A DNA stretch of 64,000 nucleotides, from contig NZ_VTAW01000019.1 in NCBI RefSeq assembly GCF_008245225.1, positions 1-64,000 on the forward strand, given 5' to 3'. This document shows, in pieces, positions 37,699 to 58,546 of the stretch. This stretch comes from Natrialba swarupiae. GTDB taxonomy: Archaea > Halobacteriota > Halobacteria > Halobacteriales > Natrialbaceae. The notes below the pieces were generated by a model. That model did not search any database and was not told the DNA's origin. It saw nothing but the letters and a program-made list of their open reading frames with translations. How positions within the stretch are numbered: position 1 is the stretch's first letter; each line of letters opens with the position of its first letter. The position numbers and the translations under genes are program-made.

Positions 37699-37902
37699 TC
37701 ACACGGAGTATCCGACGTTCTCGATCGCATCGGCGATCGACGACTCGTCGACGAGCGTCTCCTCGTGTACGACGCGAACCTCGCTCGCCTCGTGGTTCGC
37801 CGTCACCGAGGAGACGCCTTCGAGGGACTCGAGGGCGTCGGTGACGGTGTTCTCACAGCCCTCACACGCCATTCCGTCTACTTCGATGGTCGTCTCCGTC
37901 AT
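37699..37902 (-). CDS. Heavy-metal-associated (CopZ-like) protein
   Basis: A 67-residue HMA-domain protein. It has the metal motif GMACEGCENTV (M-x-C-x2-C), then the ferredoxin-like beta-alpha-beta pattern ending ESSIADAIENVGYSV. Such proteins bind Cu(I) in the cytoplasm and pass it to P-type ATPases or regulators. No ATPase gene is nearby. The ATG at 37902 starts the conserved domain; an upstream extension is not conserved. Confidence 0.92.
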   Translation of the reverse strand: MTETTIEVDGMACEGCENTVTDALESLEGVSSVTANHEASEVRVVHEETLVDESSIADAIENVGYSV

Positions 37903-37927
37903 GACGTCCCTACTTGGCCCCGACGAG

Positions 37928-38013
37928 TGATACGGATTATGATCGATCACGTATCCGCGCGCGTCTGCGGGTCGGATCTGACTGACAGGTGTCCGGTCGA
38001 CCGTTCGGATCGG
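37928..38013. repeat. Possible degenerate copy of the inverted-repeat element
   Basis: TGATACGGATTATGATCG at 37928 matches the left arm, and an internal CGCGCGTCTGCGGG resembles the middle of the copies at 2260 and 3809. No clear right arm is found. It lies in the 239-base gap between the CopZ-like and thiamine-binding genes. Confidence 0.35.
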
Positions 38014-51770: not shown

Positions 51771-53741
51771 CTACTCGCTCGTACCGCCGCCTTCGAAGAA
51801 CTCGCCGAGGACGGTCTTCAGGCCTTTCCGAAGGTGCTGGTGCATCGTCGGCGCCGAGACATCCATCGCCTCCGCGATCTCCTCACCGGTGCTCTCACGG
51901 GGCCAATCGAAGAAGCCACCGTAGTAGGCAAGCCGGAGGGTGGTGAGCTGTCGGTCGGTGAGTTGGTCGAGGATTAGATTGCGACGTTCGGCGGCGGTTC
52001 GGACTTGCCGGTCGACCTCCCGTCTGGCGACGAGTTCGGTGTTCTCGTAAATCGAAGAGAGTGCGTCCGCGATCTCCCTGACGTTTGCCTCCTGTGACAC
52101 CTCGACCAGACAGCTTCCGACGGCGTCCTCGACCGTTACGTCACGAATCGTGGTGCCGTGGTTCGTCAGCGTTCGAACGCCGGAGTCGCTCAGCCGCATC
52201 TCGATCGTACAGCCGCTGACTCCGTCGTGGACGAGCCGACACTCCTCGATCGAGCCGTGGTCGTTTGCCTCCTCGAGTACCGTCTCCCCGTCGACACCGT
52301 CGATCGTGACGAACTGGAACGTCCGCCCGTCCGCAGTCGTCCCCGCCCACTCGAGCGAACAGGTGCAGTCGTACTCCCGTGAGAGGTCGAACGAAAACGT
52401 CTCGCCGCCATCGATGCGAAACTCGAGTTCGACGACGGTATCGGCAAACAGCAGCTGGCGGTTTTTGACGGCCATGATCGTAAAGCCGATCGTCTCGCCG
52501 AGTAACTCGAATCCCGCCCGCTCGCTCTCGCTAAACGCGTCGTCGCGACTCGCCAGAACGGTTAACGCTCCGTAGGTCGCGTCCTCGTGGGTGATCGGGA
52601 CGGCGACGACGGCCTCGACGTCGTCGTCGGCAGCGGCCGTCTGCAGCGGGTCGGGCAACGGCTCGCGCTCGAGGACGTGATCTTCCGTCTGAATCTCCGC
52701 CGACCGGACGGCGCGTCGGAACGGGCGATCAGGACCGCTCGTCCCCTCCTGTACGCACTCGAGATAGGTCGTCGCGTCACCCGCGCCGGTTCGGTACGCG
52801 AGGGAGCCGTCACCGGTCCACTCGGCGATCCAGGAGCCACAGTACAGCTCCGAATCGACGAGCTGTCGACAGACCTCCCGTTCGATCGCGTTTCGGCTCG
52901 GTGCCTCGACCAGCGTCTCGATCACCCGCCGGACGACTGCGTTGATCCGGTTCAGCGTCTCGAGTTCCGCCTGGCGTGCCCGGAGTTCCCGTTCGCGTTT
53001 CGCCCGTTCGGTGATATCGCGTGCGAGCCACACGGCAACTCGCCGTCCGTCGATTCTGCGATCTGTCGGGACGACCCGGGCTTCGTACCGGAGATGTTCG
53101 TCAGCCGTCTCGACGTCGTACTCGATCGACTGTATCTCGTCGGACCGGATCGCTCGCTCGACACAGTCCAGAAGCCGTTCCGCGGTCGGTTCCGGGAACG
53201 CCTCGCCGATCGTCGTTCCGACGAGTTCCGCCGCGGTCGTCTCGTACAGCTCCGCCGATTCGGGACGGACCTTCGCCTCGAGGTACGTTCCGTCTTCGCC
53301 GATCACGAACGCCTCATCAGGCAGTTCCTCCGCGAGGATTCGACGGAACTCGACGTTTCGGTCCCGTTCCCCGGTCGTCTGCACCGAATCCACGATCCGG
53401 TCGATCAGACGGGGGCCGTCTTCCGGAACGTAATCGGTCGCACCTGCCCTGATCGCTACCGTCGCTAGCTTCTCGCTTCCGTCGCGGGGAGCGACGACGA
53501 CGGGCGCGTCGGGGACGTCCTCCTGAATTCGCGTGACGGTCGTCCGGACGATCTCAGGGTCGTCCGCAGACAGCACGATCGCGTCCGGAACGGCGTCCTC
53601 GAGTCGATCGTCGAGGTCAGCGACCGAAACAGACCGCACGCTCATCCCCGTCCGGTTCCGTATCTCGTCCGTGACGTCACTGCTGGCGCTTCGAGCGTCC
53701 GTCACGAGGACGATCAGTTCTCCACTGGTGTTCGATTCCAT
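51771..53741 (-). CDS. Bat-family sensor-regulator (receiver-like, PAS, GAF, HTH_10)
   Basis: A 656-residue one-component regulator. Order: receiver-like module (about 8-120, with ELIVLVTDARSASSDVTDE and a degenerate phosphate site), PAS domain (about 130-260), a short coil, GAF domain (about 270-430, with SGSDRPF-type pocket residues), BAT domain (about 440-580), and C-terminal HTH_10 (LTDRQLTTLRLAYYGGFFDW, then SPTMHQHLRKGLK-like end APTMHQHLRKGLKTVLGEFF). The ATG at 53741 starts the receiver-like part; one at 53759 is possible. Confidence 0.88.
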   Translation of the reverse strand: MESNTSGELIVLVTDARSASSDVTDEIRNRTGMSVRSVSVADLDDRLEDAVPDAIVLSADDPEIVRTTVTRIQEDVPDAPVVVAPRDGSEKLATVAIRAGATDYVPEDGPRLIDRIVDSVQTTGERDRNVEFRRILAEELPDEAFVIGEDGTYLEAKVRPESAELYETTAAELVGTTIGEAFPEPTAERLLDCVERAIRSDEIQSIEYDVETADEHLRYEARVVPTDRRIDGRRVAVWLARDITERAKRERELRARQAELETLNRINAVVRRVIETLVEAPSRNAIEREVCRQLVDSELYCGSWIAEWTGDGSLAYRTGAGDATTYLECVQEGTSGPDRPFRRAVRSAEIQTEDHVLEREPLPDPLQTAAADDDVEAVVAVPITHEDATYGALTVLASRDDAFSESERAGFELLGETIGFTIMAVKNRQLLFADTVVELEFRIDGGETFSFDLSREYDCTCSLEWAGTTADGRTFQFVTIDGVDGETVLEEANDHGSIEECRLVHDGVSGCTIEMRLSDSGVRTLTNHGTTIRDVTVEDAVGSCLVEVSQEANVREIADALSSIYENTELVARREVDRQVRTAAERRNLILDQLTDRQLTTLRLAYYGGFFDWPRESTGEEIAEAMDVSAPTMHQHLRKGLKTVLGEFFEGGGTSE

Positions 53742-53892
53742 ACCATCAACAGGTCCCATACATCTCGGGAGGCCGCGGACGCGATCGACCGACGAGCGCT
53801 CCGTCCTTTCTGTCCACAATCATGTTATGGAATAAAAAACCCAGTGGTCGGCGATGAAACCGGTAGAATCTCCGCCACAGTTGTAAGACGTA

Positions 53893-54726
53893 TCAGCGTC
53901 GGTTTCCGGTGTGTCTCAGCACGAGCGCCACAGCGATACCGAGGACAGCGGTTGTGCCGACGAATCCGGGGATCGAGTCCTCAGTCGCCGCGTCGTCCGC
54001 GGATTCGTCGCTCGAGCCCTCACCGGGGTCGGCGACCGTTCCGGAGCCGGCGTCGTCGGCAGACGAATCGCTCGCCGCGTCCGATGTCTCCTCGTCCGCA
54101 AACGTGACGCCGTCCGGGTCGTCGGTCCCGGCGCTCTCGTCGTCGGCTGGTCCGGCCCCGCCGTCGACGGAGACCGTAGCGTCCCGCTCGATCACAGCCT
54201 GTGGATAGTCTGTTACGAGCGTTGCGAATGCGTCGGAGATCTCGATCGTCTCCGTCGTCGGCTCCGCGTCCTCGGCGACCTCGAGGGTGATCGTCACCGC
54301 CGTCTCGGTTGCTCTCGCGCCGTCGCCGGAGGGATCGCGCTCCTGTTCGACGATGATCGTCCCCGTGTCGTCGTCGATCTCGCTCGTTCCGACGACCTCG
54401 ACGTCCGAATCGCCTCCGGTGAGCATCGAGCCGTGTTCGAGGTCGGTCACGGTGAACACGTCGGGGTCGTAAGAGAGTTCGAACCCGAGTTCGTCGATGC
54501 CGTTGGCGTTGTAGTCGCCGTGGTCGCTCACGACGAGTTCGAGTTCGATCGTCTCACCGGGATCGGCGTCGATCTCGGTCTCCTCGAAGAAGAACAACGT
54601 CGTGTTGTCGCCCGCGAACACCGGTGCGGGGACGAGCAACCCAATCCCGAGAAGACAGACGACTCCGATCGTGACGCCGGCTCGAGCCCGAGACGATCGC
54701 CCCTCGAGGACACCGGCCCGACCCAT
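53893..54726 (-). CDS. Cohesin-like secreted protein with PGF-CTERM anchor
   Basis: A 277-residue secreted protein. A signal peptide (about 16-39, VTIGVVCLLGIGLLVPAPVFAG) precedes a cohesin-type beta domain (about 42-185: DADPGETIELELVVSDHGDY, then GIDELGFELSYDPDVFTV). An acidic Ser/Asp-rich linker leads to SIPGFVGTTAVLGIAVALVL and RHTGNRR, a PGF-CTERM tripartite signal processed by archaeosortase A to anchor proteins to the S-layer. It is the last gene of a three-gene unit; the ATG overlaps the stop of the previous gene. Confidence 0.85.
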   Translation of the reverse strand: MGRAGVLEGRSSRARAGVTIGVVCLLGIGLLVPAPVFAGDNTTLFFFEETEIDADPGETIELELVVSDHGDYNANGIDELGFELSYDPDVFTVTDLEHGSMLTGGDSDVEVVGTSEIDDDTGTIIVEQERDPSGDGARATETAVTITLEVAEDAEPTTETIEISDAFATLVTDYPQAVIERDATVSVDGGAGPADDESAGTDDPDGVTFADEETSDAASDSSADDAGSGTVADPGEGSSDESADDAATEDSIPGFVGTTAVLGIAVALVLRHTGNRR

Positions 54727-56093
54727 CACGATTCCTCCGGGATGGTCAGTTCGACCGGCGGCATCTCGAGGAACGCCGTCTCGTACCCACGGTGGCGGGC
54801 GACCTGCGGGGGCGATTCGACCGTGATCGTCACCGAATCGCCCGGCTGGACGTCCGCCACGGACGTTCCGTAGTGGAGATCGAGCTCGCTATCGAGCGTC
54901 TGCTCGAGCGACGGTTCGGCGACGGTCTCGCCGTCGCGCTCGACCGTCACGGACAGGGACATATCCGCGAGCGGAACGCGGTTGTACGGCGTTCGCGGCG
55001 AGACGAGCAGGTAGCGCTCGTCCCCGTCGGCCAGTCGGAATCCCGGTTCCGTGAGGGTCGCGAGAAATGCCCCATCACCGCTCCGGGGGAGGTCCATCGT
55101 CTCCGCTGGCCGTTCGTCGGCGTCCGGATCCACGAGCACCGTCCCAGGATACTCGTCTACGTCCGGCAGTTCGGAGTACGGAACGTGGTGGTGGTCGTGG
55201 TCGTCGTGGCCGCCGTCATCGCGATGCTCGTCACCGTGCTGATGGCCGTCGTCGTGGTGGCCGTCACCGTCACCGTGCTGATGGCCGTCGTCGTGGTGGC
55301 CGTCACCGTGTTCTTCGCCGTGAGCGTGTCCACCCTCTCCGTGGCCGTGATCCATGGGCCCGAGCGCGCCGCGTCGTCCCCAGTCGTCTTCGTCCAGGTA
55401 CTCGACGCCGCCGACGACCTCGTGACGGAACTCGTCGTCGTAGACGAACTCGAACGTGGCCGTCTGTCTCTCCTCGAGTCGGCCCTCGAGGTCGCCGGTT
55501 TTCGTCGTCGAGACCGGAGTGATGGTGACCTCGACGGTGTACGTTCCGTCTTCCGGGAGCGAAACGTTGTCGCCGAAGTGAAAGCCCATCTCCTGAGAGA
55601 TCATCGCCCACGGGGATCGGGGGGAGCCGACCTGTTCGTCGTCCCGATAGATCGTGATCTGTGTCCCCTCGTCGACCGGGAGCACGATACCCGTCTCGGC
55701 GTCCCAGAGGGTAAACATCATGTGGACGCCGCGGCCGTCGTCGGGGTCGATTCGTTCGACCTCCTCTTCGGCGCTCCCGCCGCCCGCGATCACCCAGAAC
55801 GGGTGGGGGTACGAGAGCATCGGGGCGAGCCGGAACTCGCCGGCGTCGATCGGCTCGAGCATCCGCATCGCCTCCCGGTGGGTCGGGACGTAGACTGCGT
55901 CCGGCGGGTCCTCGATCTCGGGCAGTTCCGGAACGGCGGCGACGTCGTCGTCCCCGTTCCCGTCTCCGTCGCCGGTCTCGTCGCCGTCACCGGGTTCTTC
56001 TCCACCGACGCAGCCGGCGAGCGCGATCGCTCCCGTTACGGCGGCTGTTCGTCGTGTGAACGTTCGTCGGTCGATGGTGTCGCGGTCCTGCAT
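54726..56093 (-). CDS. His-rich P19-like (DUF7350) Tat lipoprotein, probable metal binding
   Basis: A 455-residue exported lipoprotein: DRRTFTRRTAAVTG and lipobox C28 (ALAGC). Residues 60-240 resemble the P19/Tp34 iron-transport fold (FRLAPMLSYPHPFWVIAGGG, then GVHMMFTLWDAETGIVLPV and MGFHFGDNVSLPEDGTYTVE), with histidines and methionines that could bind copper or iron. Residues 249-303 are extremely His/Asp-rich (GHHDDGHQHGDGD repeated). A second domain of the same type may lie at 305-455. It sits between a DyP-like protein and a cohesin-like surface protein. The role in iron or copper uptake is inferred. Confidence 0.8.
   Translation of the reverse strand: MQDRDTIDRRTFTRRTAAVTGAIALAGCVGGEEPGDGDETGDGDGNGDDDVAAVPELPEIEDPPDAVYVPTHREAMRMLEPIDAGEFRLAPMLSYPHPFWVIAGGGSAEEEVERIDPDDGRGVHMMFTLWDAETGIVLPVDEGTQITIYRDDEQVGSPRSPWAMISQEMGFHFGDNVSLPEDGTYTVEVTITPVSTTKTGDLEGRLEERQTATFEFVYDDEFRHEVVGGVEYLDEDDWGRRGALGPMDHGHGEGGHAHGEEHGDGHHDDGHQHGDGDGHHDDGHQHGDEHRDDGGHDDHDHHHVPYSELPDVDEYPGTVLVDPDADERPAETMDLPRSGDGAFLATLTEPGFRLADGDERYLLVSPRTPYNRVPLADMSLSVTVERDGETVAEPSLEQTLDSELDLHYGTSVADVQPGDSVTITVESPPQVARHRGYETAFLEMPPVELTIPEES
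55231..55308 (-). repeat. 39-base in-frame repeat coding the His-rich segment
   Basis: The 39-base unit starting TCACCGTGCTGATGGCCGTC (plus strand) occurs at 55231 and 55270, encoding two copies of GHHDDGHQHGDGD. Partial copies flank it. The period of 13 codons indicates expansion by replication slippage. Confidence 0.85.
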
Positions 56094-56125
56094 GTGTCGT
56101 GTTCGTATCGTCGTTGTCGGTCGGT

Positions 56126-57403
56126 TCACGCCCCCGAACCCGGATCTGCGGGCGGTAACGCACGGTGCTCCCGGGGCGGGAGGAGGTAGTTCCCGCGGCG
56201 GTTCACGAAGATGTAGTGGAGGAGACCGTTGTTCGCCGACGGGACGTCGAGATCCGCGCCGGTCATCGCCTCGCGTACGCGAACGAATTCGTCTATCCCC
56301 CGCTGGAGCGAGAGGAAGTGCAATCCCGGCCGGTCGCCGTCGACGGTGTTGAAATCCCGGCGCAGGAGAAGCGGGTCGCCGTTCTCCCTGGCTCGAGCGG
56401 CCTTCTGGGCGTGGCCGACGACGCCGCGTTCGCGGGCGTCGGCCGCGGTCGCTTCGATGCGGTCGTCGGTCAGCCCGCTCGCCGTCTCGAGGCGTTCGCC
56501 GAACGCTCCGACCAACTCCTCCTCGGCGTGTTCTGGGCTGAACAGCTTCGAGACTCGCTGGTAGTGATTGTCCTGTTCGAACCAGACCTCGAGCTGGAGG
56601 TCCATCGAGGAGAGCTGCTGGGTCGTTCCGCCGGAGAAGGGACCCTCGGAGATCGTCACGCGGTCTTCAGTTGCCTGACTCTCCCGGAACCCGGATCGAA
56701 AGCCCATGAAAAACGGCGCTTCCTCGTGGATCGATTCGGGGACGTCGGGGAGGTCCGTGTGTCTCGCGGGCAGGCCATCGCCGACGAATCCCGTGCGTCG
56801 GTGATCCTCGCGTCGGTCGAAGACGCCGGAGAGATCCGCCTCGAGGTCGACGCCGTTTACCGTCTCTCGGTCGCCGAACAGCGCCTCCTCGGCCTCGAGG
56901 ACCACCTCCGGACGGTCGCTCGCGAGGTGGAGCAGGGCGTCGTACTCGTCGAACGCGGGGTCTTCCCGATCGGTCAGCGCGACCGGTTCCGGCAGGTCGA
57001 CCGAGTCGGGCAGAGAGCCGTCGTAGCGCGCGAAGTACGCCGGGGTGTAACCGACGGTAAAGACCAGGCCCTCGTTGCTCCACTCGTAGGCTCGCTCTAT
57101 GGTACGGAACGCGGCCTCGACCGTGTCCCGGTCTTCCTCGTTGGGTTCGGCGCGAAGCGAGAGCGCGACGAGCGCGTGGTGTTCCGGAAGGAGCACGTTC
57201 CCGTCGTCGTCGCTCGAGAGTGTGTCGTTCCAGGCGTGCTGTCGGTCGGGCAGCGAGTCCGGATCGTCCGTACCTGACGGGGCCGCTGTGGCCTCGCCGT
57301 CGTCGACCGCGTCCAGACAGGCCGAGAGGGCGCCCGCGCCACCCGTAGCTACCAGCGCTCGGACGTACTCTCGGCGCGACAGCGAGGACCGATCGGGAAC
57401 CAT
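56126..57403 (-). CDS. DUF7405 Tat lipoprotein, DyP-peroxidase-like
   Basis: A 425-residue exported protein: SRREYVRALVATGGAGALSAC carries twin arginines and a lipobox cysteine (C29). The body shows DyP-type features: FFMGFRSGFRESQATEDRVT corresponds to the GXXDG-like region, followed by paired beta strands (SMDLQLEVWFEQDNHYQRVS) and a C-terminal LHYIFVNRRGNYLLPP. EfeB-type DyP peroxidases take iron from heme or oxidise Fe(II) outside the cell. The usual DyP aspartate is not obvious, so peroxidase activity is uncertain. The neighbouring P19-like gene follows by overlap. Confidence 0.75.
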   Translation of the reverse strand: MVPDRSSLSRREYVRALVATGGAGALSACLDAVDDGEATAAPSGTDDPDSLPDRQHAWNDTLSSDDDGNVLLPEHHALVALSLRAEPNEEDRDTVEAAFRTIERAYEWSNEGLVFTVGYTPAYFARYDGSLPDSVDLPEPVALTDREDPAFDEYDALLHLASDRPEVVLEAEEALFGDRETVNGVDLEADLSGVFDRREDHRRTGFVGDGLPARHTDLPDVPESIHEEAPFFMGFRSGFRESQATEDRVTISEGPFSGGTTQQLSSMDLQLEVWFEQDNHYQRVSKLFSPEHAEEELVGAFGERLETASGLTDDRIEATAADARERGVVGHAQKAARARENGDPLLLRRDFNTVDGDRPGLHFLSLQRGIDEFVRVREAMTGADLDVPSANNGLLHYIFVNRRGNYLLPPREHRALPPADPGSGA

Positions 57404-57575
57404 CGTCACCTACCGGTAGTCGGGGCCCGAACGTTCAAAACGTTGCGCTTCGGCCCGAACGTACCGTCGTCTTCGACGTCACTCACGTCACGAACGCTGC
57501 CCGTCGAACGGAGTGTTAGCGGGCTCTCGCGGCGAACCTGGCGCTCACAGCCCAACGAAGGTAGTGAGAGGTAAC

Positions 57576-57611
57576 GGCCGATGTTGCTGGTTCCGGCGAA
57601 CACCATCGGCC
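57576..57611 (-). terminator. Hairpin after menB
   Basis: GGCCGATG (57576-57583) and CATCGGCC (57604-57611) are perfect complements around a 20-base loop, 15 bases after the menB stop. It is a candidate terminator or RNA-stabilising hairpin. Confidence 0.45.
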
Positions 57612-57625
57612 CCGCCGCCCCCTGG

Positions 57626-58516
57626 TCAGTAGTGCCAGGCGAACTCGTCGAAGTCGGGATCGCGCCCCTCGACGAACGCGTCGCGTCCCTCCGCGGCCTC
57701 GTCGGTCATATAGCCGAGACGCGTCGCCTCGCCGGCGAACACCTGCTGGCCGACCATCCCGTCGTCGGTCATGTTGAACGCGTACTTGAGCATCCGCATC
57801 GCCGTCGGACTCTTCGCGTTGATCCGTTCGCCCCACTCGAGTGCCGTCTCCTCTACTTCTTCGTGGGGGACGACCTCGTTGACCATGCCCATCTCGGCGG
57901 CCTCCTCGGCGGAGTAGGTCTTCCCCAGGAAGAAGACTTCCCGTGCTTTCTTCTGTCCGATCTGTTTCGCCAGATAGGCCGACCCGAAGCCGGCGTCGTA
58001 ACTCGCCACGTCGGGGTCGGTCTGGAGGAACTTCGCGTGGTCTTCGCTCGCGAGCGTGAGGTCACAGACCACGTGCAGCGAGTGGCCGCCGCCGACCGCC
58101 CAGCCGGGAACGACGCAGACGACGATCTTCGGGACGTGTCGGATGAGTCGCTGGACCTCGAGGATGTGTAATCGTCCCTGCTCCGATGCCCGTTCCTCGT
58201 CGCCGTCGTACTGATAGCCGTCTTCGCCACGGCTCGTCTGGTCACCACCGGAACAGAACGCCCAGCCGCCGTCTTTGGGCGACGGACCGTTACCGGTCAG
58301 CAGAATGCAGCCGACGTCCGTCTGCCGTTTCGCGTGATCGAGAGCGTCGTACAGTTCGTCGATCGTTCTCGGTCGAAACGCGTTCCGAACGTCAGGTCTG
58401 TCGAACGCGATCCGCACCGTTCCGGAGTCCGCCGCGCGGTGGTAGGTGATATCGCGGAACTCGTCGTTCAGGGCCGTCGGCTCCCAGCACTCGGGATCGA
58501 ACAGTTCCGAAACCAT
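57626..58516 (-). CDS. menB: 1,4-Dihydroxy-2-naphthoyl-CoA synthase
   Basis: A 296-residue crotonase-fold enzyme (EC 4.1.3.36) that closes the naphthoquinone ring in menaquinone synthesis. FDRPDVRNAFRPRTIDEL, the oxyanion segment AFCSGGDQTSRGEDGYQ and PGWAVGGGHSLHVVCDLTLA match MenB, with the conserved aspartate/serine region DVASYDAGFGSAYLAKQIGQ. The C-terminal EGRDAFVEGRDPDFDEFAWHY is typical. The ATG at 58516 has a TATA-like CCTATATTTGG (minus strand) 35 bases upstream. Other men genes are not in the window. Confidence 0.94.
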   Translation of the reverse strand: MVSELFDPECWEPTALNDEFRDITYHRAADSGTVRIAFDRPDVRNAFRPRTIDELYDALDHAKRQTDVGCILLTGNGPSPKDGGWAFCSGGDQTSRGEDGYQYDGDEERASEQGRLHILEVQRLIRHVPKIVVCVVPGWAVGGGHSLHVVCDLTLASEDHAKFLQTDPDVASYDAGFGSAYLAKQIGQKKAREVFFLGKTYSAEEAAEMGMVNEVVPHEEVEETALEWGERINAKSPTAMRMLKYAFNMTDDGMVGQQVFAGEATRLGYMTDEAAEGRDAFVEGRDPDFDEFAWHY

Positions 58517-58546
58517 TGCTCGTGGTCGTCTCGAGTGCGACGCCAA

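Follow-up and report, generated by a model that had tools for sequence, protein, structure and literature searches.

The 64,000-nucleotide window examined here, positions 1 to 64,000 of contig NZ_VTAW01000019.1 (assembly GCF_008245225.1) of the haloarchaeon Natrialba swarupiae, carries on its minus strand, at 53893-57403, three closely packed open reading frames (ORFs), termed P1, P2 and P3. An initial annotation had described them as overlapping or nearly overlapping genes of a surface operon that resembles an EfeOB/P19-type iron uptake system without its permease. The gene arrangement is borne out by the window sequence: P3 and the P2 stop share 4 bases, and a longer alternative GTG start of P2, at 56129, gives a 4-base overlap with P1. 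Based on the collective evidence, P1 and P2 represent a pairing found class-wide in haloarchaea, that of a dye-decolorizing peroxidase (DyP) family devoid of the catalytic aspartate with a duplicated, methionine-substituted P19 protein. The three genes and their relevant parts are the following.

56126..57403, minus strand: P1, a DUF7405 lipoprotein exported by the twin-arginine translocation (Tat) route, with a predicted DyP fold (Pfam, AlphaFold2 and structure comparison)
56690..56704, minus strand: GFRSG of P1 (residues 234-238), at the place of the DyP GXXDG motif, the catalytic Asp being replaced by Ser
56357..56413, minus strand: P1 from His331 in GHAQK, the candidate for the proximal heme ligand, to Leu347-Arg348-Arg349, with the candidate for the distal Arg
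54726..56093, minus strand, from ATG: P2, a lipoprotein in which a His-rich linker joins two P19-like domains (Pfam, AlphaFold2, FetP match)
55398..55934, minus strand: P2 domain 1, predicted P19 fold, with ligand-like His124, Met126, Met164, Met169 and His172
55182..55352, minus strand: His-rich linker between the two P2 domains (alignment)
54738..55142, minus strand: P2 domain 2 (DUF7350), apparently a diverged P19-like copy, with conserved His407 and Arg433-His434
53893..54729, minus strand: P3, a secreted cohesin-like protein with a PGF-type C-terminal membrane segment (Pfam Cohesin; seven other loci in close relatives)

P1 combines a twin-arginine (RR) signal with a lipobox at Cys29, belongs to DUF7405 (Pfam E 2.9e-153) and has its nearest relative, 81% identical, in Natrarchaeobius chitinivorans. 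Its earlier description as a DyP-like Tat lipoprotein is thus upheld, with the fold taken from prediction: in the AlphaFold2 model, obtained with 25 P1 sequences as input and the only good one of five (predicted local distance difference test score, pLDDT, 71.6; predicted template modelling score, pTM, 0.75), P1 has the double ferredoxin-like fold of the DyPs. The top structure matches of this model are all DyPs (Foldseek E 1.8e-13 to the V. cholerae DyP), and structure comparison gave a Z score of 22.7 over 284 residues with VIA and of 22.3-22.4 with EfeB. Because a single-sequence search of the PDB returned no DyP, a sequence-profile search of the PDB ranked DyPs first but weakly (best E 0.016) and no match to the canonical Dyp_perox_C was found, the DyP case for P1 rests on structure. 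The Asp of GXXDG is important in most DyPs (PMC8197335). At the corresponding position 237, the 70 distinct homologues have Ser (44), Ala (25) or Asn (1), and never Asp; the GFRSG stretch is modelled with a pLDDT below 50. His331, Arg348 and Arg349, by comparison, are invariant in all 70, and their assignment as candidate proximal His and distal Arg was made by sequence spacing and by profile alignment to DyP structures around the LRR. A relative of P1 encoded on a plasmid of Streptomyces sp. NBC_00503 (locus L060), annotated as hypothetical and 39% identical, shows the motifs GFxSG, GHAQ and RR just as the haloarchaeal proteins do. The invariance of the three residues, class-wide and in this Streptomyces relative, suggests that the active site of P1 has been kept. 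P1 probably binds heme, with His331 as the ligand. Given that the Asp matters in most DyPs and that in a B-type DyP the Arg is essential and the Asp is not (according to the account of Singh 2012 given in PMC7611857), P1 may or may not be active as a peroxidase.

P2 follows the same export plan, a twin-arginine signal with a lipobox, to which a His-rich linker is added, and its designation as a P19-like, His-rich lipoprotein proved accurate. Pfam assigns both Iron_transport/P19 (PF10634; E 2.9e-6, 28 bits at a cut-off of 21) and DUF7350 (E 5.5e-54). The AlphaFold2 model (pLDDT 78.3) predicts the P19 β-sandwich for domain 1, residues 73-229 of which match FetP (Z 11.9), FtrA and P19 and, at a lower score, CrdA (Z 8.4). 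In profile comparisons with hhalign, domain 1 scores about 96.5% against seven bacterial P19s, and domain 1 against domain 2 reaches about 97% probability (E 2e-11 to 4e-10), with the control comparisons, against seven neighbour families that are unrelated, all below 1%. The case for duplication rests on the comparison between the two domains, since DUF7350 compared directly with bacterial P19 gives scores that depend on the setting (0.1% at one, 46% at another). The profiles favour reading DUF7350 as a second copy of domain 1 that has diverged, and its RH motif (H434) resembles that at P19 His132. The alignment shows the linker only in L038 and in the majority of the Natrialbaceae group.

The residues of the putative metal site lend P2 its particular character. 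His124, Met126, Met164, Met169 and His172 are invariant in 57 of 57 homologues and align with His42, Glu44, Met88, Asp92 and His95 of P19, respectively. The copper ligands of P19 we take to be His42, Met88, His95 and His132, and the equivalents of the first three of these are kept in domain 1 throughout the 57 proteins. The putative iron site of P19, which holds Mn/Fe, is composed of Glu3, Glu44, Asp46 and Asp92 (PMC9174327). Of these four acidic residues at least three are replaced in P2, in a comparison that covers Glu44, Asp46 and Asp92: Glu44 and Asp92 have given way to Met, and Asp46 to Thr or Ser (position 128) in 44 of the 57. With the acidic residues of the iron site mostly lost and a Met-rich, His-containing site in place, copper is probably the metal that P2 binds, perhaps in the Cu(I) state.

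The two families are distributed in close agreement. Among 242 Halobacteria genomes, DUF7405 is found in 213 and DUF7350 in 207; both occur in 206, neither in 28, and only 8 are discordant (Fisher p 5e-29, a value too small as the genomes are related, yet the match is close). Haloferax volcanii is among the species that carry the two families. P2 lies within 1.5 kb of P1 at 45 of 69 P1 loci, on the same strand at 38 of these (downstream at 30, upstream at 8) and on the opposite strand at 7. Differing gene orders between genera argue for selection rather than for one inherited arrangement, and P1-P2 is a class-wide partnership in haloarchaea. Conservation of the whole trio, as envisaged in the initial annotation, holds for P1-P2 and fails for P3, which is present at 7 of the 69 P1 loci, always in the same position and exclusively in close relatives of the Natrialbaceae group; a class-wide P1-P2-P3 trio was accordingly dismissed. 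NCBIfam gave no match for P1, P2 or P3, and a literature search retrieved no paper on DUF7405 and nothing relevant on haloarchaeal P19 or DyP. As a separate observation on P1, where a P1 paralogue has no P2 in its vicinity, the gene directly upstream can encode a lipoprotein of 640-660 amino acids from a family without a Pfam match (L042:8023-9951, L055:6027-7949, L039, L043, L044).

As had been noted, the permease is missing: FTR1 (EfeU) was found neither in the window genome nor in any of the 242 Halobacteria searched, and the M75 domain of EfeO had no match in the window genome, the control genomes matching in both searches. P3 had been proposed to stand in for the permease. As for its identity, the cohesin part of the description is supported (Pfam Cohesin, E 1.9e-7) and P3 is a secreted protein whose C-terminal part includes a hydrophobic segment; the PGF-type C-terminus can be recognised by eye (6 of the 8 P3 sequences have PGF), no Pfam or NCBIfam model reporting one. 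Dockerin (PF00404) had no match in the genome, and control genomes matched. A general role of P3 as permease substitute was rejected given its restriction to close Natrialbaceae relatives and a genome without dockerin. The proposal is further contradicted in that FTR1 is absent from every one of the 242 genomes, and an orphan membrane family with 9-11 predicted transmembrane helices, termed M3 (alignment A5), adjoins P2 or P1 in many other genomes. M3 matches no Pfam or NCBIfam family and no PDB entry convincingly; it is found in 170 of the 242 genomes and is absent from that of the window. It lies within 2.5 kb of P2 at no fewer than 37 of the 150 P2 places listed, and within 2.5 kb of P1 at 17 or more of the 151 P1 places listed (0.24 expected in each case); these linkage counts, like those for SCO1 below, derive from the best ~150 matches and are lower bounds. 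The linkage of M3 to DUF7350 proteins is strong also at loci with no DUF7405 beside them (L110-L123), and M3 has invariant His359, His410 and Glu182 (L096 numbering). In other loci a DUF7282 surface-type protein fills the place of P3, standing after P2 (L067, L070, L083) or before P1 (L078), and occurring also in L119.

Gene neighbourhoods point to copper rather than iron. At 14 or more of the 150 places listed (1.1 expected), SCO1/SenC is encoded no further than 8 kb from P1, P2 or M3, in 14 genomes of about nine genera of other haloarchaea and at P1 in 7 of the 14, against one FecCD iron permease seen and 1.6 expected among the matches listed. Individual loci present further copper-type genes: a heavy-metal P-type ATPase follows P2-M3 in L110, SCO1 and NosL flank P2-M3 in L114, NosL-NosD comes after P1 in L101, as does plastocyanin in L085, and the plasmid locus L062 combines a multicopper oxidase with a P-type ATPase, the latter also found in L057 (plasmid). 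A heavy-metal-associated protein likewise counts among the individual copper-type neighbours. Genes of the DsbA and redoxin types are among the neighbours in several genomes. With the acidic iron patch of P2 replaced by Met and Thr/Ser, and with SCO1 enriched and iron ATP-binding cassette permeases not, iron uptake is not supported; iron is not the best-supported metal, and the iron-uptake reading is weak.

The nearest working precedent comes from Streptomyces lividans: there DtpA, a DyP exported by the Tat route, cooperates with Sco and ECuC in providing GlxA with copper when copper is limiting (PMC4736821). Oxidation of Cu+ by DtpA is described in a review (PMC8197335). We consider it somewhat more probable than its negation that haloarchaea have a DtpA-Sco-ECuC-like copper-handling pathway in which P1 and P2 form the lipid-anchored core outside the cytoplasm. 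In the mechanism suggested, P2 would capture copper at the cell surface, and P1, as a Tat-exported heme protein, would oxidise Cu(I) with the aid of the distal Arg and peroxide; alternatively, P1 may service the copper passed on by P2 in another manner, or act on a copper client. The analysis shows the predicted folds, the domain duplication, the conserved residues, the co-occurrence and the gene linkage; heme in P1, the choice of copper as substrate, a redox function of P1 and the direction in which the metal flows are parts of this scheme that we infer. The setting could be the maturation of copper enzymes or copper detoxification at the cell surface, with SCO1 chaperones and M3 as probable partners where they are linked in other genomes, and with the co-encoded cohesin-like surface protein P3 in the window lineage, which has no M3. 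What the system would share with DtpA-Sco-ECuC is a Tat-exported DyP operating with extracytoplasmic copper chaperones, SCO1 being linked to P1/P2 in other haloarchaea; it differs in that P1, which lacks the Asp of GXXDG, is placed by Pfam in a family apart (DUF7405), in that a duplicated protein of P19 type acts as the partner chaperone, and in that no GlxA counterpart was identified. A bolder and rather doubtful extension holds that DUF7405 constitutes a new, Asp-less class of DyPs for copper, as opposed to organic substrates or iron, working alongside the double P19 as a copper protein and, in the majority of haloarchaea, alongside M3, which would move copper across the membrane or deliver it to respiratory copper enzymes.

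Several points weigh against assignment to copper. Proteins of the P19/FtrA type serve copper and iron alike, the P19 ligand His132 is not kept in P2 domain 1, and P1 is without the catalytic Asp of GXXDG in every one of the 70 homologues. The SCO1 statistics come from the best ~150 matches listed, in related genomes, and their P values are too small. A tally of Pfam families among near as compared to far neighbours had no copper family among the commonest, so that the copper link is specific to SCO1 and to a minority of loci. In the window itself, the trio has dnaK and a menB-like gene as its closest neighbours and no copper genes beside it, and the sole copper-type gene seen, encoding a heavy-metal-associated (HMA) protein at 37699-37950, is located ~16 kb off.

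Iron uptake of the EfeOB/P19 type, in which P2 would bind Fe(II), P1 would oxidise it and another membrane protein would replace FTR1, draws on the fold matches of P1 and P2 to EfeB and P19/FetP, on the finding that Cu-loaded FtrA can oxidise Fe2+ (PMC11966278), and on the possibility that the permease is M3, a membrane family that is both linked and polytopic. We regard it as unlikely, considering that FTR1 is lacking in 242 of 242 genomes, that the window genome has neither an M75/EfeO domain nor M3, that P2 has Met and Thr/Ser at the acidic iron-site positions of P19, and that the FecCD iron permease is not linked. Compared to EfeUOB, the haloarchaeal pair is similar in uniting a Tat-exported protein of EfeB fold with an extracytoplasmic metal-binding partner and departs from it in having no EfeU/FTR1 in any of the Halobacteria searched, no M75 in the window genome and no catalytic Asp in P1. 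The iron-uptake proteins P19/FetMP/FtrABCD are paralleled in the P19 fold and the core His/Met/His copper ligands of P2 domain 1, and differ from P2 in that the latter is a fused two-domain lipoprotein with three of the four acidic iron-site residues replaced and no FTR1 partner. The copper resistance determinant CrdA of H. pylori, whose structures include a silver complex, has a fold resembling P2 domain 1, but the match is restricted to one shorter domain and Z 8.4 is modest.

Two further explanations were considered. One is that of a defence pair, with P1 as a surface peroxidase or a heme-processing, deferrochelatase-like protein and P2 as a buffer for released or Fenton-active metal. The retained putative proximal His and distal Arg of P1, the essential Arg (not Asp) of a B-type DyP in Singh 2012 as cited in PMC7611857, and the DsbA- and redoxin-type neighbours are all in keeping with it; but P1 has lost the Asp that most DyPs need, deferrochelatase activity is disputed even for EfeB (both PMC8197335), and the SCO1 link is left unexplained, making this possibility distinctly improbable. 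The other, that P1 no longer binds heme and serves as a scaffold or ligand-binding protein on a retained DyP fold, could account for the loss of the Asp in 70 of 70 proteins and for a distal-loop region not confidently modelled. The class-wide invariance of His331, Arg348, Arg349 and several other residues, in the Streptomyces relative too, opposes it to the extent that we consider it very unlikely.

The pairing has importance in that two domains of unknown function which occur together in about 85% of the Halobacteria searched can now be given a fold and a partner, along with a role that can be put to the test. Relatives of P2 are named 'iron transporter' at NCBI, and if the copper reading is true, the name is misleading class-wide. 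The proposed pathway would then also provide a second Tat-exported DyP tied to copper trafficking, far from Streptomyces, and a test of whether a DyP can work without the catalytic aspartate.

The surroundings of the locus offer some additional observations. A small membrane protein of DUF7471 (cluster c2) is encoded near P1/P2 in 14 loci (L040, L056, L057, L062, L065, L068, L070, L081, L083, L084, L087, L088, L089, L097), with a winged-helix regulator adjoining in some. The small HMA-type protein of the window (37699-37950) appears CopZ-like by eye. Just upstream of the trio lies the following gene.

57626..58546, minus strand: menB-like gene (enoyl-CoA hydratase family), 83-87% identical to the menB-like neighbours of L031 and L032

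Gene maps of relatives place the P1-P2-P3 block between menB-like and menA-like genes (UbiA, by Pfam match), and in Natrialbaceae the P1-P2(-P3) block is situated within a menaquinone-biosynthesis-like cluster (window 53893-58546; L031-L037, L051), with a menB-like gene before the block in several loci, a UbiA/menA-like gene after it, and a MenC-like gene as well in some. In the window, the menA side is replaced: a bacterio-opsin-activator-like gene at 51771-53819 stands in place of the downstream men genes.

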